Shown: positions 1 through 50,239 of the stretch, piece after piece
Numbering within the stretch: position 1 is the first letter of the stretch
Layout: each line of letters opens with the position of its first letter
Assembly: GCA_938048185.1 (NCBI GenBank)
Contig: CALIVT010000009.1
Location: 1 to 64,000, forward strand
Origin: an uncultured Arenicella sp.
GTDB lineage: Bacteria > Pseudomonadota > Gammaproteobacteria > Arenicellales > Arenicellaceae
DNA: 64,000 bases
Direction: 5' to 3'
Made by a program: the position numbers and the translations under genes
The notes under the pieces: model-generated
What the model was told of the DNA's origin: nothing
The model's database searches: none
Seen by the model: only the letters and a program-made list of their open reading frames with translations

Positions 1-140
1 AGCGGAGAATCGATGCGTAAGAAACTCAATAAACTTGACCCATCGTGAACACCTGAGGTACAAGATCAGTAACAACATGTTAAGAAATTTAGGTGTTCAC
101 CATGGCGCGGAATAGGTGTTCACGATGAACGGAATACGCA
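1..140. mobile_element. Outer end of an IS21-like insertion sequence (partial)
   Basis: The motif AGGTGTTCAC or its complement occurs three times (about 46-56, 91-100 and 114-123), the last followed by GATGAACGGAATACGCA, which ends in CA at 140. Multiple internal copies of a terminal repeat and an end reading CGGAATACGCA are typical of IS21-family (IstA/IstB) elements; that match is from memory, not from a search. No transposase is visible, so the element's body would lie left of the window, or this is a solo end. Confidence 0.5.
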
Positions 141-254
141 CCCTGGCATACACCAAACGGTCATTTAGATATATTTGTGTTGACTGTAAATCGTTCGGAA
201 TATCTATCTTCTATAGTTAGCGCCTTCAAACATTATTACTTATTAGGAATACTT

Positions 255-896
255 ATGAATCTTGAATTGCTGCCCTATCTTTCAGAGCTAATTACAGTCG
301 GTTTAGTAGCTACTTTCATGGCAATAAGTCCAGGCGCAGATTTTCTAATGGTGACGAGAAACAGTATTTTTCATGGCCGACTAGCTGGGTTGTATTCCTC
401 ATTGGGAGTGAGTTTAGCAATCTGGGTACATGTTGCTTACTCTATAGCTGGCCTCGCCATTATTATCGCCAACTCAATGCTTTTGTTCTCCATTATAAAA
501 TATTTAGGTGCCGCATATTTAATCTATATAGGGTGGAAAACTTTTAGCTCGAAACCAGACTCGGGAGTAATGACTGGAGTAGAAAATAAAAACCTGTCGA
601 ATTTTTCAGCATTTAAATTGGGTTTTATAACGAACGTATTAAATCCGAAAACTACGATCTTCTTTTTAAGTATATTTACGCAAGTTGTTGATCCACAAAC
701 ACCATTATTGATACAACTTCTATATGGTGTAATTATCTCATTGGCGCATTTAATCTGGTTTAGTTCAGTGTCGATTTTTCTCAGTCAGCCAGCTCTACTA
801 GAAAGATTTCAAACATATAGAAATACTATCGAAAAAACTCTTGGCTTCGTATTAATGGGGTTTGGCCTCAAAGTAGCGACGAGCAGCAATAGCTAG
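255..896 (+). CDS. LysE/RhtB family amino-acid exporter
   Basis: Inner-membrane exporter of the LysE/RhtB family, which usually moves amino acids or their derivatives out of the cell. The family signature PGADFLMV lies near residue 26 after a first hydrophobic helix, and about six membrane segments can be read. The length (213 aa) is normal. The ATG at 255 is preferred because AGGA sits just upstream and the family motif then falls at the usual distance; a GTG at 177 would add 26 atypical residues. The gene lies between an IS end and a short repeat and is AT-rich compared with the rest of the window, which suggests acquired DNA. The substrate cannot be told. Confidence 0.85.
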   Translation: MNLELLPYLSELITVGLVATFMAISPGADFLMVTRNSIFHGRLAGLYSSLGVSLAIWVHVAYSIAGLAIIIANSMLLFSIIKYLGAAYLIYIGWKTFSSKPDSGVMTGVENKNLSNFSAFKLGFITNVLNPKTTIFFLSIFTQVVDPQTPLLIQLLYGVIISLAHLIWFSSVSIFLSQPALLERFQTYRNTIEKTLGFVLMGFGLKVATSSNS

Positions 897-930
897 ATCA
901 AGCGAAACTCTTGCCTTTCGAGTTATTTAG

Positions 931-1015
931 TGAGCGGCCGTAATGGGCAACTTTTGCCCGTTCGGATTGATATAATTGAATGAGTCTTAAATACTCTAAG
1001 CCGACACTCACCCAA
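931..1015. repeat. Short interspersed imperfect inverted repeat, copy A
   Basis: Begins GTGAGCGGCCGTAATGGGCAA and ends near CCGACACTCACCCA; the two ends are imperfect inverted copies of each other. It aligns over about 70 bases with copy B at 2240-2322 (roughly three quarters identical by eye), including a shared ATACTC core. It lies directly after the LysE-type gene. Confidence 0.55.
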
Positions 1016-1066
1016 CTAGACAATGGTCTGTCCCTGTTCTGTTCATAAATTTTAAAAGAGCATAAT

Positions 1067-2194
1067 ATGAAACGAATTTTAATTTCTCTCGTGTTGATTT
1101 TTAGCTTGCTAAGCACTGCTTACACTGGCTCCGCCCTAGCCCAAGAAGCAGCTGCCGAGACTGATTTGCGAACACCTTTGGAGTGCTATACTGCAAAAGA
1201 CCTCGCGTGCTTGACGAGTCTTAAAGCACCGAATCCTTTTGCCGGTGATGAAAAAACCAAACAGCAAAATGCCGCCTATTATTACGAAGGCTTACTAATA
1301 TTTGAGCAAGGCGGGGATAAAAATAGCGCTAAAAAGAGCCTGATGATTGCCATAGCGTTTGGTAATGATGAGCTCAAGGAAAAAGCGGAGTTGACTCTGA
1401 AAGAATGGTACGAAAAGGGCTCAGTAGAACTAGATAGCACTGAATGTGGCCAAATTAATTCGCAGAAGTGCCTATACGATTTAGCCGACAATAAAAATGA
1501 CGCAAACGCGCAAGCTGTTATTGGTGCTTCATTGATAGAGAGTGACCCCAAGTCGGCAGTAGTGTATCTGCAAAAAGCAGCAAATCAAGGCCATAAATCG
1601 TCGCATTGCGTGTTATTAACTGGTGTGAGGGACGGCACTTTGGATACCGGTCAGACCTACCACGACGCGGTTGATCAGATGATGCAAGACTGTCGTTTAG
1701 CACCGGTTTTTAAACGGTTCTCAGCTGACTATCATAAGAAGTATTTAAAAAAGGCTGAACATAAAGCTTATGCGCACTCTGAATCAGGCCGCGCGTATTT
1801 TCAACATGATTACATTAGTGCCGACCTAGCGGCTCGTGCCGCGTTAGAGAGTTGTAATTCAACTGTTAAAAAAGAAGAATTGCCTTGCAAGGTCATTAAG
1901 ATCGACAATAAATGGGTCAAAGACCCAACCCCAGCTGCTTTTCCTACCGGCCGAATGGGGGGCGAAGCATTAATCACTTATAAGGCAAGAGAGTCTTTTG
2001 CTGGCAAATACGCCCAAGACTCAAATACAAATAAAGTATTTGTGCATTCTGATTCGGGTGCTTGGTCGTGGAAGACATCGTCGAAAGATTCATTGGCCGA
2101 ATTAACCAAAAAAGCACTGTCTCAATGCCAGTCACAAAGAATCAATATGAAAGGAAAGTATCAGTGCAGAGTTATTGATTATGTTGGTGAGTAG
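1067..2194 (+). CDS. Exported protein with Sel1-like part and duplicated C-terminal domain
   Basis: A signal peptide is clear (residues 1-25, cleavage after ALA-QE), so the product is exported, probably to the periplasm. Residues about 140-175 read like one Sel1/TPR-type helical repeat (DPKSAVVYLQKAANQGH). The C-terminal third holds two copies of one small domain (about 235-290 and 325-375), each running from an A/VHSxSG start through a helix ending in C and closing with CKVI or CRVI. This spacing resembles DUF4189-type domains, but the match is tentative. The cysteines suggest one disulfide per copy. A copy of the short repeat family lies before and after the gene. No function can be assigned. 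Confidence 0.75.
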   Translation: MKRILISLVLIFSLLSTAYTGSALAQEAAAETDLRTPLECYTAKDLACLTSLKAPNPFAGDEKTKQQNAAYYYEGLLIFEQGGDKNSAKKSLMIAIAFGNDELKEKAELTLKEWYEKGSVELDSTECGQINSQKCLYDLADNKNDANAQAVIGASLIESDPKSAVVYLQKAANQGHKSSHCVLLTGVRDGTLDTGQTYHDAVDQMMQDCRLAPVFKRFSADYHKKYLKKAEHKAYAHSESGRAYFQHDYISADLAARAALESCNSTVKKEELPCKVIKIDNKWVKDPTPAAFPTGRMGGEALITYKARESFAGKYAQDSNTNKVFVHSDSGAWSWKTSSKDSLAELTKKALSQCQSQRINMKGKYQCRVIDYVGE

Positions 2195-2239
2195 TGAGTA
2201 ATTTTTACTAGCGTGCTTAGGAGACAGATCACATTCAAA

Positions 2240-2322
2240 CAATGTCCGCTATGGGCAACTTTCACCCAGTCGCGTTGACTTAATTGAGTGGGTCTTCAAT
2301 ACTCGGAGCTGCCATTCAATGA
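2240..2322. repeat. Short interspersed imperfect inverted repeat, copy B
   Basis: Starts AATGTCCGCTATGGGCAAC and ends AGCTGCCATTCAATGACC; the ends are imperfect inverted repeats and the whole aligns with copy A. The rest of the gap (2195-2459) is AT-rich with no other structure seen. Confidence 0.55.
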
Positions 2323-2459
2323 CCTTGCTCACATCCTATTTTTTGACACTATGTCATGAGTGTGTTCATTGCTTTTATGGCATGTAAGTTAGACGTTTCA
2401 ATTTTTTGTAATACCGAAAAATGAGCGGTTAGCAAATAGTACATTCTGAGGAGAACATT

Positions 2460-4271
2460 ATGGAATTTAAAAATGGATTGAGAGGTTTCTCTCGCTCGCT
2501 GGTTTGTAAAAGTGTTGGCATTATATTCACTTTTTTTGGTTCTACCTTCTACCTACATGCTGAGCCAACGGCTGAAGAATGGCATGACTATCTAATACAG
2601 GATACCTGCCGCGATTCACTGGGCAACCCAATTGAAGGAGACCCTTACAATAAAGATGAATGTCCCAATTCTTCGAACTTGAAGCCTGGCGAACGAGTCT
2701 TTGGGGGATTCAAGTTCTCTAATCAAGGTCGAGTTTATGGAATTTGGTCCTTGCCGCGTTTATCACCTAACGGTGAGGTTGGCTTTGTTCTTTTTGACTC
2801 AGCGTCAGAGGTACGTATTCCAAAGACCGGTGAGTTTGTGAAGTTTGAAAAAGGAATGTTCGATTTGGATGACCCTCATTGTAAAGTGCAAGGGAGTGAG
2901 TGTGAACAAGACGGAGATGTTGATATTGTTGATCTGGTAGAGGCTTATTGGGATAGTTCATCAAGTAATATTGTTTCCGTTATAGGAACAGCGCATGGTG
3001 GCAGTAGCGGATATATCGGGTTTACTAGCACCAGTACAACTGGTGCTCCGGAGCTGTCGGCCGATGGTTGGTTGCTTGGCCTAAGTGATCCCCTTGAAGG
3101 TGAGATTCGTCAGACAAATGACGCCGCCATATGGGTTTACGCGGACGAAATGAGCATTCTTCAGCCTTACCAAATTGCTAATGGATTGGAGAAAGATGTT
3201 TGTGGCCCTCCCTTGGGGCAGACATCGGAGGCCTGCAGAACCGGTTACAATTTATGGCTTAAGATAAGCGATCTGTATATGGGGGAAAATAAAACATTTA
3301 GAGATGTCATGCTGAGTATACATACCTTTAGCTACGAAGAGCTTACTCAGCAATGCAAGCATCTTGAGCTATTTCTTCACAGTAAGGAGTACGGCCTCAT
3401 GAGTCACCAAGTTTGGAAAGTACCTGGGTGCTATCAACGTCATACTATCCCTGCGGTTGGTGATCAGGACGAGATTAAAAGTGATGTCACTAATATAGGC
3501 TGTGAAGAAATTCATAATGATGGAGATATTCAAAAGAATATGATTCACAGCCCTATGGCTATCAGAGTCGATGGTAAAGATGTTGTCTTGGAACGGGTTA
3601 ACTGCGCTAGAGCGATTCATACTGCACTAGATTATGCGTATCATTTTGACCCTCGATCGTTTTCTCAACCATCGAAGCCAGACCCTAGTGTTTCCTATTC
3701 AAACACTAAAGTAGTTGACGAAGCGGGGTATGGTAACGTCCTGCTGGACGGGAATTTTTCTAGGGATAACACTGGTACTGCTTGGACATTTGTTAACGCA
3801 CTGCATGTAGTTAGGACTCAGAACATAGTTGAGCCAGCGCCTCTAAACCAGGCCTTAGAGCTACACTGCTATTTTAAAGTAAAACCCAGTGACGATATAA
3901 GCTGCGAGAATTCATCGGTTTATCAAGACGTGAATATTAGCCTGCGAGCACCCGGAATGATCGGCAAAGAAGTAGATTTTGGTGTGCGGGTAGCACAGTT
4001 AGTGGATAGACCTCTTGGCGATGAAGCTAAGGGTACTGTTTACCTTTATCAGCTTGATCAAAATGGAGCTCTAATACCAGGTGCTGACATAGCTCAAGAG
4101 AGCTTTGTTATTGAAGCGATCGAGACGAATTGGCCAAATCCTGTAGGCAAGTTTGTTGAGTCTAGAACCAAGATTGATAGCAGAACTTCAACTATTCGTT
4201 TTCAAGTTTTTATCGATGAGAAATACCACGCTTATATGATAGATGACGCATTCGTTACACGCCGAGAGTAG
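2460..4271 (+). CDS. Exported protein of unknown function, 603 aa
   Basis: Not recognised. An N-terminal signal peptide is visible (hydrophobic stretch around residues 19-34, cleavage near HAEP). The mature part is rich in cysteine and acidic residues, including a CEQDGDVDIVDL segment near 145 that resembles a calcium loop but is not a dockerin. Residues about 420-600 look like a beta-sandwich module of the carbohydrate-binding or adhesion type: LLDGNFSRD start, alternating hydrophobic strands, and a closing YMIDDAFV. A good start is supported by GAGGAG eight bases before ATG 2460. It is flanked by copies of the short repeats, which fits an accessory gene. A surface or ligand-binding role is only a guess. 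Confidence 0.7.
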   Translation: MEFKNGLRGFSRSLVCKSVGIIFTFFGSTFYLHAEPTAEEWHDYLIQDTCRDSLGNPIEGDPYNKDECPNSSNLKPGERVFGGFKFSNQGRVYGIWSLPRLSPNGEVGFVLFDSASEVRIPKTGEFVKFEKGMFDLDDPHCKVQGSECEQDGDVDIVDLVEAYWDSSSSNIVSVIGTAHGGSSGYIGFTSTSTTGAPELSADGWLLGLSDPLEGEIRQTNDAAIWVYADEMSILQPYQIANGLEKDVCGPPLGQTSEACRTGYNLWLKISDLYMGENKTFRDVMLSIHTFSYEELTQQCKHLELFLHSKEYGLMSHQVWKVPGCYQRHTIPAVGDQDEIKSDVTNIGCEEIHNDGDIQKNMIHSPMAIRVDGKDVVLERVNCARAIHTALDYAYHFDPRSFSQPSKPDPSVSYSNTKVVDEAGYGNVLLDGNFSRDNTGTAWTFVNALHVVRTQNIVEPAPLNQALELHCYFKVKPSDDISCENSSVYQDVNISLRAPGMIGKEVDFGVRVAQLVDRPLGDEAKGTVYLYQLDQNGALIPGADIAQESFVIEAIETNWPNPVGKFVESRTKIDSRTSTIRFQVFIDEKYHAYMIDDAFVTRRE

Positions 4272-4279
4272 ATTCTTCG

Positions 4280-4355
4280 AATGGCTGTAAAGGGCAATTT
4301 GAAGACAAAGTTAAATGTCTCTGCCATACTCATAGCAGCCACTGTGGGCTTGAGA
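4280..4355. repeat. Short interspersed imperfect inverted repeat, copy C
   Basis: Reads GAATGGCTGTAAAGGGCAA at one end and ATACTCATAGCAGCCACT at the other. The ends are inverted relatives (AATGGCTG / CAGCCACT) and the right half matches copies A and B, with a shortened middle. Confidence 0.45.
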
Positions 4356-4383
4356 CCTAATGGTTCATGCAATCTAAATTCAA

Positions 4384-4400
4384 GCATTAATAATTAATGC
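4384..4400. promoter_or_regulatory. Perfect 17-base palindrome before the PD40-type gene
   Basis: GCATTAAT-A-ATTAATGC is a perfect inverted repeat about 60 bases upstream of the GTG at 4461. It could be an operator for a dimeric regulator; no regulator is encoded next to it. Confidence 0.35.
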
Positions 4401-4460
4401 AACGAAAACACTCAGACCTGCATCATTGGTTTTATAGGAAATAAAAATTTGGTGTAAATA

Positions 4461-5303
4461 GTGACACGTACTTATATTTTAGTTGTTCTTCTCCTTTCCT
4501 CTATGACGAGCATAAGCTTCAGTCAAGATGAATTTCCAGTTCTTAAAGGCCCCTATCTTGGACAAAAACCACCAGGATTGACTCCTGAAGCTTTTGCTCC
4601 TGGGGTTGTTTCCACTGAAGAGCATTTTGAAACCGAAGTATTGTTTTTACCCAATATGAAGGAACTCTCGTTCACTCGGTCTGATCTAGACCGTACAGAG
4701 TCTAAATGGTTGGTTATGGAACACCGAGATAATAGATGGAGTAAAAAATCTATTGAACCAGTTGATATCGACAATTATAAAGAAAGGTTTAGTCCTAGGG
4801 TTTCGCAGATGACAAATCTTGAACCTTTTAAAGACATCCCTATTGAAGGATTCGCGGTATCTGCTAAAGAAACATATTATTTTTATACTTTAGATTTCAA
4901 TGATGGGAGTGGGCATATGAGTTATTCACGCCTAGTCGACGGTAAGTATGAAGAGCCTAAAAAAATGAGCAAGGCGATTAATAGAGGAAAATATATTGCC
5001 CATCCGTTTATTGCTCCAGATGAATCATATTTGATGTGGGATGCTGAGAAAGACGGTGAAAACACCCCTGATATCTACATTAGTTTTCGAGATAAAGATG
5101 GCGCATGGGGAGAGGCAATTAATATGGGAGATAAAATAAACACCGCAGCCTATGAACAGCGCCCGAAAGTCACACCTGATGGGAAATATTTGTTCTTTTT
5201 GAGGGCTGATAAAAATGTTAGGAAAGATGGTAGCCATTATTGGATAGGTAATCCTCATTGGGTAGATGCGAAGGTCATTGAAACACTCAGACCCAAAGAA
5301 TAA
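4461..5303 (+). CDS. Exported PD40 (TolB-like beta-propeller) repeat protein
   Basis: A signal peptide (residues 1-21) precedes repeats of the PD40/WD40-like type: FSPRVS near 112, HPFIAPDESYLMWDAEKDG near 180 and RPKVTPDGKYLFFLR near 238, the last two carrying the SPDGkyL-type hallmark. This predicts a periplasmic or outer-membrane-associated beta propeller, probably a binding scaffold. Only about four blades are visible, so the propeller may be incomplete or divergent. It starts with GTG; the ribosome binding site is weak. The ligand is unknown. Confidence 0.75.
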   Translation: MTRTYILVVLLLSSMTSISFSQDEFPVLKGPYLGQKPPGLTPEAFAPGVVSTEEHFETEVLFLPNMKELSFTRSDLDRTESKWLVMEHRDNRWSKKSIEPVDIDNYKERFSPRVSQMTNLEPFKDIPIEGFAVSAKETYYFYTLDFNDGSGHMSYSRLVDGKYEEPKKMSKAINRGKYIAHPFIAPDESYLMWDAEKDGENTPDIYISFRDKDGAWGEAINMGDKINTAAYEQRPKVTPDGKYLFFLRADKNVRKDGSHYWIGNPHWVDAKVIETLRPKE

Positions 5304-13157: not shown

Positions 13158-13306
13158 TGTAATTTCACCGCTGAACCGGTTATAGGCACACAACGTGCGA
13201 AACCAATAGCCCGTAGTTCAGTCATGTGCTTTTCCCATTTCTATGTCTAATCTTATACACATGTTTGCTATTCTAAAGCGACCTTAAGCTCTGATCCTAT
13301 TCAATT

Positions 13307-15474: not shown

Positions 15475-17736
15475 CTAATAGTGATCTAGCGGGTCAATAT
15501 CTAAGGTCCATCGCACTGAGCTGGCAAATTTCTTCGCCTGCGCGTCGGTCGCGAGAAAGTGCAGCCACTGCGCCAGGCATGCGTTCAGGCTAGAACGTTG
15601 GCTACTGCAGACTAGTAATTGGGCCCGGTACTTTCCGGCCCGGCGTTCCATTGGCGCAGGAATCGCGTCCATTATCCTTACCCCATCGTAGTTCACCATG
15701 TCGTCTTTGGCTTTGCGCAAAAATTGCAATGACTTAGCTTGATGCGCAGACTCACAACGCAATAGGGCAAAATAACCAAATGGCGGGAAGTTCGCCGCTT
15801 TACGCTCGTTTATCAATTGCTCGGCAAAACCATTGAAATCATGCGTAAGCACTTTGTCAAAAAATGAGTGCTCAGGAAACCGCGTCTGAATAAACACATG
15901 GCCGACATCGTCACGCCGACCCGCACGACCCGACACCTGAATAATTTGCTGAAAAAGATTTTCGCTGGCGCGAAAGTCGGTGCTATACAAACCTTGATCA
16001 GCCTCGAGAATTCCGACCATGCCAACATTCGGGAAGTCATGCCCTTTAGTGATTAGTTGCGTACCTAGCAAAATGTCCGCCTTACCGGAACGCGCCTGCT
16101 CTAGCAATTCGGCCAACTCACCTTTGCGGCGCGTACTATCACGGTCAATGCGCAACACCGTTGACTCAGGAAACCGCAATGCCAGCGCGTCTTCTACCCG
16201 CTGGGTTCCCTCGCCAACGTCCACCATTTCGGACGACTGGCAACTGCCACAATTGGTTTTTATCACGCCTTCGTAGCCACAATGATGGCAACGCAAACGG
16301 TTGGCCCGGCGATGCAATGTGAGGTGCGAATCACAGCGGTGGCATTTGGCCGCCTGCTTGCAATCTTTACAATACAACACTGGGGCGTAACCGCGACGGT
16401 TCAAAAACAACATAACTTGTTTCTTACGCTGCACGGTCATTTTAATAGCCTCGAGCATGCTAGGGCTTAAACCATCATTAGTCGCTTGTTGGTTCAGATC
16501 AATTAACTCGATCTTCGGCAAGCTAACTTTGCTGGCACGCTCAGTCAATCGAAACAACTTAAAACGCCCGTTGCTCGCATTCACATACGTTTCGATCGAC
16601 GGCGTTGCCGAACCCAAAACAATTGGAATATTGTGTTGTTTAGCACGATAGATCGCCACATCACGTGCTTGGTATCGTACATTGTCCGTTTGTTTAAACG
16701 AGCCGTCGTGTTCTTCATCAATAATGACGATACCAAGGTCACTAAACTGACTGAACACCGCAGATCGTGTTCCCACTATGATCTTGGCATTGCCTTGGCG
16801 GGCATGCCACCAAGCTAAATGTCGCTCGGTGTCGTTCAAACCTGAATGCATCATTACCACTGGCGCCGAAAAGCGCTGCTCAATACGGTCAATCAGTTGT
16901 GGTGTTAGACCGATTTCTGGCACAAGCAACAGCGCTTGTTTACCCAGTGCAAGTACGTGATCAATCGCAGCAAAATAGACCTCAGTCTTACCACTGCCAG
17001 TGACACCATGTAATAAGGAGCAGGAAAAAACCTTATCATCGATTGCGTTGAACAAACCGCTTACTGCGTCTTGCTGTTGGCCAGTAAGCGTTAAGTCGGT
17101 TTCTATTTCTCGCGCATCTACCTTTAAAGTGCGCGCCGCCAAGGCCGGCTCGCTGACATATTCCTGAACCCAGCGTTTCTCGACCAGGGCGTTAACGGCT
17201 TGTCGCCAGCCTGAAGACGTTTCCTTAAAGTCGCTAGCGTCCAACAACGAGCTTTGCATAAAGCGTTTAATAATCGCCAATTGCAATGGCGCGCGATTCA
17301 ACTCGTCAAGCGGGGAAGCACGACCGTGATCAGTGAGCACCCACGATTTTTTGTTCGCGGGCCTTAGCTCGCCACCTTGACGAATCAGGCTTGGTAGCGC
17401 GGTGCCGATGACTTCGCCGATAGGCGCTAAATAGTAACGCGATAGCCATTGCAGAGTGTGCCAAAGCGGCTCATCGAACAGGCTTATCTCGTCCAAAATT
17501 TCCAAGGCTTTTTTTAGTTTTGATTCGGGAAATTCGCTGCTGCTCTTAACCTCAGTAATAACGCCAACTAGCTTTCGTGTTCCGAACGGTACCTTTACCC
17601 GAGCCCCACGCACCGCTGTGGGGGAATCGTCAGGCACCAAGAAGTCAAACGTTTGGCGCAAAGGAACCGGCACCGCGACGCTAATAATATGGTCCGAACT
17701 GGCGATTTCGGGAAACAATGTATCAGCACCAACCAT
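15475..17736 (-). CDS. priA: Primosomal protein N' (replication restart helicase PriA)
   Basis: Recognises stalled forks and loads the replisome. The N-terminal 3'-end-binding domain (1-105) starts SVAVPVPLRQTFDF. The helicase core has Walker A GVTGSGKTEVYF near 247 and DEEH near 348. A zinc-binding insert of paired cysteines (CKDC, CHRC, CHHC, CGSC) lies near 455-500, and the C-terminal domain follows. Full length at 753 aa. The gene starts beside an AT-rich region with DnaA-box-like sites, which could bear on its control. Confidence 0.97.
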   Translation of the reverse strand: MVGADTLFPEIASSDHIISVAVPVPLRQTFDFLVPDDSPTAVRGARVKVPFGTRKLVGVITEVKSSSEFPESKLKKALEILDEISLFDEPLWHTLQWLSRYYLAPIGEVIGTALPSLIRQGGELRPANKKSWVLTDHGRASPLDELNRAPLQLAIIKRFMQSSLLDASDFKETSSGWRQAVNALVEKRWVQEYVSEPALAARTLKVDAREIETDLTLTGQQQDAVSGLFNAIDDKVFSCSLLHGVTGSGKTEVYFAAIDHVLALGKQALLLVPEIGLTPQLIDRIEQRFSAPVVMMHSGLNDTERHLAWWHARQGNAKIIVGTRSAVFSQFSDLGIVIIDEEHDGSFKQTDNVRYQARDVAIYRAKQHNIPIVLGSATPSIETYVNASNGRFKLFRLTERASKVSLPKIELIDLNQQATNDGLSPSMLEAIKMTVQRKKQVMLFLNRRGYAPVLYCKDCKQAAKCHRCDSHLTLHRRANRLRCHHCGYEGVIKTNCGSCQSSEMVDVGEGTQRVEDALALRFPESTVLRIDRDSTRRKGELAELLEQARSGKADILLGTQLITKGHDFPNVGMVGILEADQGLYSTDFRASENLFQQIIQVSGRAGRRDDVGHVFIQTRFPEHSFFDKVLTHDFNGFAEQLINERKAANFPPFGYFALLRCESAHQAKSLQFLRKAKDDMVNYDGVRIMDAIPAPMERRAGKYRAQLLVCSSQRSSLNACLAQWLHFLATDAQAKKFASSVRWTLDIDPLDHY

Positions 17737-17779: not shown

Positions 17780-17988
17780 TTACCCACAAAGCCTGTGGAT
17801 AACTTTGTTGATAAAACTTTTTTTCCGCGGCTCAGCATTGGTAGATATTGGCTTGGCACTTTTTGCCTATTTTTTGAGCAATCAATTTTTTTCAATAAAA
17901 TCAATAATTTATGGTCAATTTAAATATTACAAACAGATTGCTTAAAAAAAAATCTGTAAAACTATTGACATAAAAAAATTGTGTATAA
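17780..17988. other. DnaA-box-like cluster with AT-rich tract and IHF-like site
   Basis: Four DnaA-box-like 9-mers: TTACCCACA (17780-17788), TGTGGATAA (17794-17802, perfect TTATCCACA on the other strand), TGTTGATAA (17806-17814, one mismatch) and TGTGTATAA (17980-17988, fits TTATNCACA). Between them lies a tract of very high AT content with an IHF-like site AATCAATAATTTA (17899-17911) and an ACAGATT/AATCTGT hairpin (17933-17957). These are the parts of a replication origin, but a DnaA-responsive control region is equally possible. The rest of the 17737-18275 gap shows a promoter-like TTGACA at 17965 and no gene. Confidence 0.45.
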
Positions 17989-18275
17989 GTTAATTTTGAA
18001 GTCTAAAACCGCTAAAAGTAGAGAGTCTATTTTTATCAATAACTTAGCGATTACTATTGAATATCTTAATCAAGAAAGAGCCGTGACGGGCAGCTTATCT
18101 TAGGCTTAACTTTCCGGTCTATTATATGATAAAGCGTTGGCCGCTCGTCGGTTGATTTTAGAGCACACTCGGGTTTAGCCGGGCGCGCGAGCCTTGGCTA
18201 TTTAACGGCTAGATTTTGCGCTACACTCTAGCCCAAACTTTGAAGCACCATTCGCATACACATTAAGAGTCACTC

Positions 18276-19082
18276 ATGGGAAAAAAATTCACGGCCAAAA
18301 AAGCCGATAAATATGTTCTTTATCAACGCGCCGTGCAGTCCGCCGAACAAGATGTAGAATTCCTATTTGATACCTACAAATCGCTGAGAGGCAAAACTCC
18401 AAAACACTTTCGCGAAGACTTTTGCGGCACCTGTTTACTCTCAGGTTATTGGGCGAAGCTGGGCGACGACTTCACCACCGAATCGTACGACATTGACCCA
18501 GAACCGCTGCAGTGGGGCTTGGAAAACAATTTAAAACCACTTGGTAAAATCGCTGAACGAGTGGTTCAGTATGAAGAAGATGCGCGCAACCCAAGCCGCA
18601 AAGCGCCCGATGTACGTTGTGCACAAAACTTCTCTTATTGGATCTTCAAGCAACGTGCCGAAATGTTGGATTACTTCACTGGGGTTTACAACGATTTAGC
18701 CGATGACGGTATCTTTGTTTGCGATTTGCACGGCGGGCCCGAGAGCATGCAAGAGCTAGAAGAAGAAACCGAAATGGACGACGAAAGTTTTACCTACGTT
18801 TGGGACCAAGACTCAATAAACCCCATTACGGGTGAAGCTCGTTTGCATATCCACTTTCGCTTTCCAGATGGCAGTGAGATGCGCGACGCATTTACCTACG
18901 ATTGGCGTTTATGGGGTTTGCCTGAACTACGCGATATTATGCTTGAAGCTGGCTTCGCGAGCGCCGATTGCTATTGGGAAGGCACCGATGAAGATGGCGA
19001 GAGTGGCGACGGTGTATTCACCAAGAGCGACCAAGGTGAAGCTTGCTTGTCATACGTTGCGTATTTAGTCGGCACAAAATAG
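18276..19082 (+). CDS. Class I SAM-dependent methyltransferase
   Basis: A Rossmann-fold methyltransferase of unknown substrate. FREDFCGTCLLSGYWAK near 45 is a modified motif I, SYDIDPEPLQWG near 72 carries the acidic residue that would bind the SAM ribose, and GIFVCDLHGG near 147 is motif IV. The C-terminal part (WGLPELRDIMLEAGFASA) is the usual last strand-helix pair. The protein is full and ends 9 bases before the next gene, with which it is probably cotranscribed. Confidence 0.8.
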   Translation: MGKKFTAKKADKYVLYQRAVQSAEQDVEFLFDTYKSLRGKTPKHFREDFCGTCLLSGYWAKLGDDFTTESYDIDPEPLQWGLENNLKPLGKIAERVVQYEEDARNPSRKAPDVRCAQNFSYWIFKQRAEMLDYFTGVYNDLADDGIFVCDLHGGPESMQELEEETEMDDESFTYVWDQDSINPITGEARLHIHFRFPDGSEMRDAFTYDWRLWGLPELRDIMLEAGFASADCYWEGTDEDGESGDGVFTKSDQGEACLSYVAYLVGTK

Positions 19083-48523: not shown

Positions 48524-50239
48524 ATGCTAACCCAAGCCGACGTTATCCACAGCCTGCCCGTCCATTTACAGCCCTTTGTTGCGACTCAGGACTACAGTGC
48601 GTACACAGCGCGCGATCAAGCGGTTTGGCGATTCTTGTTGCACCAACTTATCTTTAGTCTACAAGGTAAGGCACACCCGACATACTTTGAAGGCTTGGCG
48701 AAAACGGGTATTAGCTTTGAGAATATTCCGCGCATAGAAGAGATCAACCACTGCCTGTCTAAACTAGGCTGGCGCGCGGTTGCAGTAGACGGCTTTTTGC
48801 CACCCGCCGTGTTTATGGAATTTCAGGCGATCAAAGTTCTGGCAATCGCGGTTAACATTCGCTCGTTCGAGCACATGCTGTACACCCCAGCGCCAGATAT
48901 TGTTCATGAGTCGGCCGGTCACGCGCCGTTTCTAATTGACATCGACTATGCGGAATTTTTACAACGCTTCGGCGAGTTGGGCATGCAAGCCATCGCCAAT
49001 CAACACGATATGGATATCTACGAAGCGGTGCGCGAACTTTCTATCGTCAAAGAAGACACGGTTTCAACGCAAGCTAAAATTGACGCCGCTCAGCAAAAAG
49101 TTGAAGATTTACAAAACACCAAAGTCGACCCTTCGGAAGCCAACCTCCTTGCGCGGCTGCATTGGTGGACTGTTGAATATGGTTTAGTCGGGAAGACTCA
49201 TGATTACAGAATTTTCGGGGCCGGCTTACTATCGTCGTTATCGGAAAGCCAAGACTGCATGAATGACACGACGGTAAGCAAGCATTCACTAACCATCGAC
49301 GCGATCAACACAGCGTATGACATCACCACTGCACAGCCCCAATTGTTTGTAACAGAATCGTGCCGGCACCTTAGCCAAGTTTTGGCGGAATACGGTCGAC
49401 ATATGTGCTGCCAGCGTGGCGGCGCCAGCGCGCTGCATGAAGCCAAAACCGCTGGCAGCATCAATACCATCACACTCAACTCGGGCATACAAATCGCCGG
49501 TACAATCAGCAAAGTACGCTGCGATGCAGTTGGCAACGCAATTTATTTCAACACAGTTGGCCCCACCCAGCTAGCCTACGCCAGTCGACAGCTAAACGGG
49601 CACGGCATCGATCATCATGGTCAGGGTTTTGGCTCGCCAATCGGTAAGCTGCGCGCCATCGAACGTTGTCTTTCAAGCTATACGGTTGATGAACTCAAAC
49701 GCCACAATATCGAGGTTGATAAGGTTGTCACACTTAACTTCTTATCTGGCGTTAGCGTCGTCGGTCTCTTAAAGGAGATTGTCCGGCGCGAACAGAAAAA
49801 CATTATATTTAGTTTTATCGCCTGTACTGTCAAAGACAGCGCCGGGCACATCCTCTTCGACCCCGATTGGGGTAACTACGATATGGCTATTGGCAGTAGC
49901 GTGACCTCGGTTGCCGGCGGGTCGGCGGACCAAGAGCGCTACCCAATTTATGACGCACCGTCGAGCAACGTTTCTCTAAAGCAAGACTATGACGAGGTGA
50001 CGCGAGCGCAATTCAAGCTTTATGCTGGCTTGCGAGAATGCCGCGAAAGCGGTCAGAGCGCCAACGCACTTAGCAACGAGATAAGCACACTCGAAAACTG
50101 CGACTGGTTATTGTTATTTGAAGCCCTAGAACTGACGACGGACGAAACACTACGAGAGCGCTTAACTAATAGACTTAAGAGTGAACCTGACCAGACACTT
50201 ATTCGCCAAGGTTTAATACGCCTGACAAAGAGTGTATAA
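48524..50239 (+). CDS. Phenylalanine 4-hydroxylase, long form
   Basis: Pterin-dependent iron enzyme making tyrosine from phenylalanine. The iron ligands are His128 and His133 (HESAGHAPF) and Glu218 (WWTVEYG). The catalytic domain covers about 20-310; a further 260 residues (about 315-571), with LNFLSGVSVVGLLKE near 410, are absent from the short bacterial enzymes. Long-form aromatic amino acid hydroxylases occur in several bacterial groups; the extra part may be regulatory or a separate activity. ATG 48524 is chosen, 2 bases after the maiA stop, giving 571 aa. Confidence 0.9.
   Translation: MLTQADVIHSLPVHLQPFVATQDYSAYTARDQAVWRFLLHQLIFSLQGKAHPTYFEGLAKTGISFENIPRIEEINHCLSKLGWRAVAVDGFLPPAVFMEFQAIKVLAIAVNIRSFEHMLYTPAPDIVHESAGHAPFLIDIDYAEFLQRFGELGMQAIANQHDMDIYEAVRELSIVKEDTVSTQAKIDAAQQKVEDLQNTKVDPSEANLLARLHWWTVEYGLVGKTHDYRIFGAGLLSSLSESQDCMNDTTVSKHSLTIDAINTAYDITTAQPQLFVTESCRHLSQVLAEYGRHMCCQRGGASALHEAKTAGSINTITLNSGIQIAGTISKVRCDAVGNAIYFNTVGPTQLAYASRQLNGHGIDHHGQGFGSPIGKLRAIERCLSSYTVDELKRHNIEVDKVVTLNFLSGVSVVGLLKEIVRREQKNIIFSFIACTVKDSAGHILFDPDWGNYDMAIGSSVTSVAGGSADQERYPIYDAPSSNVSLKQDYDEVTRAQFKLYAGLRECRESGQSANALSNEISTLENCDWLLLFEALELTTDETLRERLTNRLKSEPDQTLIRQGLIRLTKSV

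Follow-up and report, generated by a model that had tools for sequence, protein, structure and literature searches.

The window, that is the whole stretch of 64,000 nucleotides that was analysed, corresponds to contig C9:1-64000 of a 3.12-Mb genome. The gene of the replication restart helicase PriA lies on the minus strand at 15475..17736 and was identified by its NCBIfam match to primosomal protein N'. Divergent to it, a plus-strand gene (18276..19082) encodes a product of 268 amino acids that showed no Pfam or NCBIfam match and is about 84% identical in Arenicella-labelled relatives. The DNA between priA and the divergent gene is 72% A+T overall. At the right edge of the window atpA, atpG and atpD are all encoded on the minus strand. 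The positions 1-5000 have a G+C content of about 41-43% versus 48% and a positive GC skew, and are possibly acquired DNA.

When the priA upstream DNA was read directly, four DnaA boxes were found within 209 bp (17780-17988), three of them within 35 bp. Box I (TTACCCACA, 17780..17788, plus strand) is 43 bp from the priA start. Box II (17794..17802, minus strand) is a perfect TTATCCACA that is oriented head to head to box I with a 5-bp spacer, and box III (TTATCAACA, 17806..17814, minus strand) is separated from box II by 3 bp. The 35-bp core reads TTACCCACA-N5-TGTGGATAA-N3-TGTTGATAA, i.e. box I(+)-N5-box II(-)-N3-box III(-). All offsets were counted from box II. A candidate Fis site at +71 (17865..17879, no strand assigned) has the sequence GCCTATTTTTTGAGC, a perfect match to GnnYAnnnnnTRnnC, and a candidate IHF site at +105 (17899..17911, plus strand) has the sequence AATCAATAATTTA, a perfect match to WATCAANNNNTTR; both consensuses are degenerate motifs and the sites are sequence matches. 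The outer, fourth DnaA box (TTATACACA, 17980..17988, minus strand) follows at +186, and the region 17866-17979 is 82% A+T. The sequence-only reading had described a DnaA-box cluster, an A+T-rich tract and an IHF-like site beside priA, and all three were confirmed; what it had missed was the Fis consensus and the internal geometry of the site. A second perfect IHF consensus, TATCAATAACTTA, is located just beyond the outer DnaA box at 18034-18046.

The arrangement of the boxes was analysed by a geometry scan. The priA element matched the I-N5-II-N3-III pattern with 2 mismatches in 27, and no site with 6 or fewer total mismatches was found in 60 first-order Markov shuffles of the 174-kb contig. 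The plain box count was unremarkable, with five TTWTNCACA motifs in the window versus 6.5 expected. The cluster is notable because of the box arrangement, whereas the box number alone is not significant. Lone DnaA boxes without cluster partners occur at 48543-48551 (TTATCCACA) and at 13253-13261 (TTATACACA). At the element one weak sigma-70-like site was detected, fewer than in shuffles. A TGTCAA motif conserved beside the outer box was inspected by eye as a possible -35 and rejected, since there was no -10 at the proper spacing.

The conservation of the boxes in relatives, a check suggested by the sequence-only reading, was followed in the order. From 30 priA loci that were fetched, two end before the upstream region, leaving 28. 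Boxes II and III were kept upstream of priA in all 28, and box I was degenerate (7-8 mismatches) in six of them. In E. coli, box I is needed for the head-to-head DnaA dimer. Across 27 relatives nearly all columns of box II were invariant or at least 90% conserved. In 27 of the 28 regions the outer DnaA box was observed between +179 and +193, the exception being L038 with +209. We then used R1, a sequence-only model built from 27 priA-upstream regions of the order. R1 matched 57 of 60 genomes of the order, usually with a second copy in addition. Third core-type elements were seen at L089:5040, L090:5068 and L091:15245; those in L089 and L090 match the core half of R1 only.

In the genome of the window R1 had two matches only. 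The second copy is located at C34:13969-14182 (L074:4970-5183), upstream of an RDD-like gene adjoining lptF, lptG and pepA; these names were assigned by eye from sequence and gene order. The RDD/lptFG synteny of the second copy recurs in many families. In the genus of the window, the Fis site, IHF site and outer box of the second copy are at about +61, +95 and +178, whereas the priA copy has them at +71, +105 and +186. The three accessory sites are displaced together by 8-11 bp towards the core, about one helical turn and in phase, and the IHF-Fis distance is constant at 34-36 bp across both copies. The second copy has an extra TTATCCACA on the plus strand at +194, oriented like E. coli box V and near its position. 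In shift mutants of E. coli DARS2, a DnaA-reactivating sequence, 10-bp shifts were better tolerated than 5-bp shifts (PMC4245941). An in-phase spacing change of one turn fits a folded nucleoprotein complex.

Outside the order, R1 matched 123 of 140 Gammaproteobacteria genomes, a set with one genome per family apart from a few exceptions, mostly with two copies each. In a sample of the phylum it matched every genome of the class (25) as well as 40 of the 75 from elsewhere, with several families showing no match. In family f160 (e.g. G244), outside the class, up to nine R1 matches per genome were found, which may be expanded DnaA/IHF sites or a repeat family. As the E-values of R1 are rough and the model comes from related sequences, the layout was checked independently by searching GTDB genomes with the DnaA boxes alone, leaving a spacer of 160-176 free. 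This gave at least 117 stretches, and the matches listed include Methylococcales, Chromatiales, Lysobacterales, Arenicellaceae, Marinicella, Alcanivoracaceae, Competibacter and others. Among the 121 box-selected elements in the matches listed, the free spacer peaked at 168-170, 66 Fis consensus hits fell at +70 to +73 (about 7 elsewhere), and 107 hits of an IHF site with at most one mismatch fell at +104 to +109. This positional clustering of Fis and IHF is far above background, though the sample is redundant within some genera. The two copies were on opposite replichores in 11 of 14 complete genomes, a tendency short of significance (p = 0.06). In a Methylococcales MAG the element occurs four times in tandem, at intervals of about 320 bp (L201:5449-6622). 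Pattern matches were also obtained in MAGs labelled Phycisphaerales and Rhodospirillaceae (L148, L211), possibly binning errors.

The location of the replication origin was analysed on contig C9 (174 kb). The dnaA gene was found at C9:91298-92617 and mnmG at C9:78967-80814. The cumulative GC skew has its minimum at C9:92,220, at dnaA, and a four-box DnaA cluster lies just downstream of dnaA at C9:92671-92769. From the leftward direction of the atp genes the sequence-only reading had predicted oriC to the right of the window, and dnaA and the skew minimum are about 75 kb to the right of the priA element, which itself lies where the skew is falling. The genome's own oriC (C9:92618-92875) shares TTATCCACA-type boxes with the priA element, but it has a different box arrangement without the core geometry, no IHF consensus and, unlike the priA element, a position at the skew minimum.

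We compared the core with the two DnaA-reactivating sequences (DARS) of E. coli (NC_000913). The DARS1 core is TTATCCACT-N5-TGTGGATAA-N3-TGTGTATTA and the DARS2 core is TTATTCACC-N5-TGTGGATAG-N3-TGTGAAGAA. The assignment of DARS2 was backed by a nearby pair of IHF sites, each with one mismatch and separated by exactly 3 bp, in agreement with the published IBS1-2 (PMC4245941). In both, the box orientation (I opposing II, III parallel to II) and the two core spacers of 5 and 3 bp are identical to those of the priA element. R1 found E. coli DARS1 with an E-value of 1.7e-7 and the DARS2 core with 2.8e-4. The genome also encodes the proteins of a DnaA cycle, namely dnaA, whose product carries the box-reading DHTTV motif, fis, himA (IHF-alpha) and an Hda-like ORF. 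The last, called Hda-like by eye, encodes a 230-aa DnaA-related AAA+ protein with an N-terminal QLAFPL. The anatomy and conservation of the element, its non-origin status and the presence of DnaA, the Hda-like protein, Fis and IHF-alpha are direct results. Judged by its sequence, the priA element (17780-17988) is probably a DARS that regenerates ATP-DnaA. Points against this reading are the degenerate box I of six priA-linked copies in the order, the position of the Fis match on the core side of the IHF match, and the reversed outer box relative to box V of DARS2.

A different possibility is a site like datA, where DnaA and IHF hydrolyse the DnaA-bound ATP, or where DnaA is titrated, after the region near the origin has been replicated. 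At about 75 kb from oriC the element is duplicated early, and its IHF site is flanked on both sides by DnaA boxes as in datA, which also has a core-like pair of boxes II and III. Three boxes near TTATCCACA could soak up DnaA. However, a box I at N5 is missing from E. coli datA, which lacks the I-N5-II-N3-III core; its boxes 2 and 3 flank IHF without a head-to-head core, which is present at priA. In addition, the IHF site of datA is on the other side of its II/III pair, its biochemical effect is opposite to that of DARS, and four boxes are few for titration. A Fis site held at a constant offset is characteristic of DARS2, and we know of no Fis site described for datA. Identity with datA was rejected because of the wrong geometry, and we regard a datA-like or titrating function as unlikely. 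The sequence-only reading had considered a DnaA-titrating site; its general idea of a control site that handles DnaA holds, whereas the specific match, DARS, was not named. A fixed DnaA-Fis-IHF layout would also suit another complex of DnaA, IHF and Fis, for example an inactivating one.

The element might also be the regulatory region of priA, with upstream DnaA binding coupling replication restart to the DnaA cycle. Box I is close to the priA start, and priA was the commonest single neighbour (32 of 121 elements among the matches listed), with the core always towards the priA start. On the other hand, in the relatives of the order the element lies at distances from the priA start that differ by more than 100 bp, whereas the spacings inside the element are fixed. 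Copies also lie beside the RDD/lptFG locus, hemW-like, polA-like and further genes. Among the matches listed, convergent genes flank 25 of the 104 elements for which both neighbours could be seen, and one of 121 is inside an ORF. Since about a quarter of these copies have a convergent-gene location, the element is not a promoter element. DnaA control of priA as the main function, which the sequence-only reading had proposed, is not supported by this distribution and appears quite improbable; a side effect on priA is possible. A second or back-up chromosomal origin was rejected as extremely improbable: DnaA boxes, an A+T-rich tract and an IHF site are parts of an origin, and Pseudomonas aeruginosa is reported to have a second autonomously replicating element, with just one of the pair essential (PMC4403523), but the skew of contig C9 switches at dnaA and not at the priA element, the dnaA-dnaN region already has a box cluster, denser than the one at priA and, like the skew minimum, set beforehand as evidence against a second origin, and at least two copies per genome by unrelated genes across the class would imply multiple origins nearly everywhere.

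For the DARS at priA we propose a mechanism by analogy with E. coli (PMC4245941, PMC8682772, PMC5742627), whose DARS biochemistry supplies its steps of protein binding and nucleotide exchange, its timing and the part given to the outer box. After each replication round, DnaA would be left in the inactive ADP form by Hda and the sliding clamp. Boxes I and II of the core would then bind ADP-DnaA head to head, with box III alongside. Fis would bind between the core and IHF, and IHF would bend the DNA about midway along the stretch from the core to the outer DnaA box. The locus could thereby fold and bring DnaA at the outer box and the nucleoid proteins to bear on the core complex. With ADP released, apo-DnaA would take up ATP, and the resulting ATP-DnaA would be available to oriC about 75 kb away. 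The inverted outer box may serve as a third contact or as a switch.

To our knowledge, DARS set the replication start time of E. coli and have been dissected only in this organism. According to reviews, similar DARS sequences exist in many proteobacteria (PMC10380432, PMC5742627). In the largely open literature that was covered, no account was found of a DARS at priA, of the order core-Fis-IHF-outer box or of such wide conservation. DARS as such are known; what appears to be new is the placing of Fis ahead of IHF together with an inverted outer box, the site beside priA and the breadth of conservation. If this layout is the general form, one control of the cell cycle throughout the class would be the regeneration of ATP-DnaA at pairs of sites gated by IHF and Fis. 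It would also provide a simple sequence rule for locating DARS sites, and the natural one-turn spacing variants could be used to test the DNA-bending mechanism.

The two E. coli sites resemble the priA element in different ways. DARS1, between bioD and uvrB, showed a colinear match to R1 over 200 positions, but it is without an IHF or Fis consensus, unlike the priA element. DARS1 needs no extra factors for its activity in vitro (PMC5742627), whereas IHF and Fis sites are required for the activity of DARS2 (PMC4245941). DARS2, in the rppH-mutH region, and the priA element are both intergenic and agree in the side and orientation of the IHF site, and each has a Fis consensus and an outer DnaA box near +190. 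The IHF match is at +105 in the priA element, within the range of offsets in which such matches cluster among the 121 elements listed, and at +95 in DARS2, one turn apart; the second copy in the genus of the window also has +95. They differ in the neighbouring gene, priA or mutH, and in the outer box, which points the opposite way to box V of DARS2. The perfect Fis consensus of the priA element, conserved in position, is on the core side of the candidate IHF site, whereas the essential Fis sites of E. coli DARS2 are beyond IHF (consensus at +131). We consider it about evenly balanced whether the standard gammaproteobacterial DARS is a rigid core-Fis(+72)-IHF(+106)-inverted outer box(+190), mostly found as two copies and frequently located next to priA. 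The E. coli sites would then be derived forms, DARS1 with the Fis and IHF sites absent and DARS2 as a form in which an in-phase deletion of one turn removed the near Fis site and the Fis sites on the far side of IHF are new.
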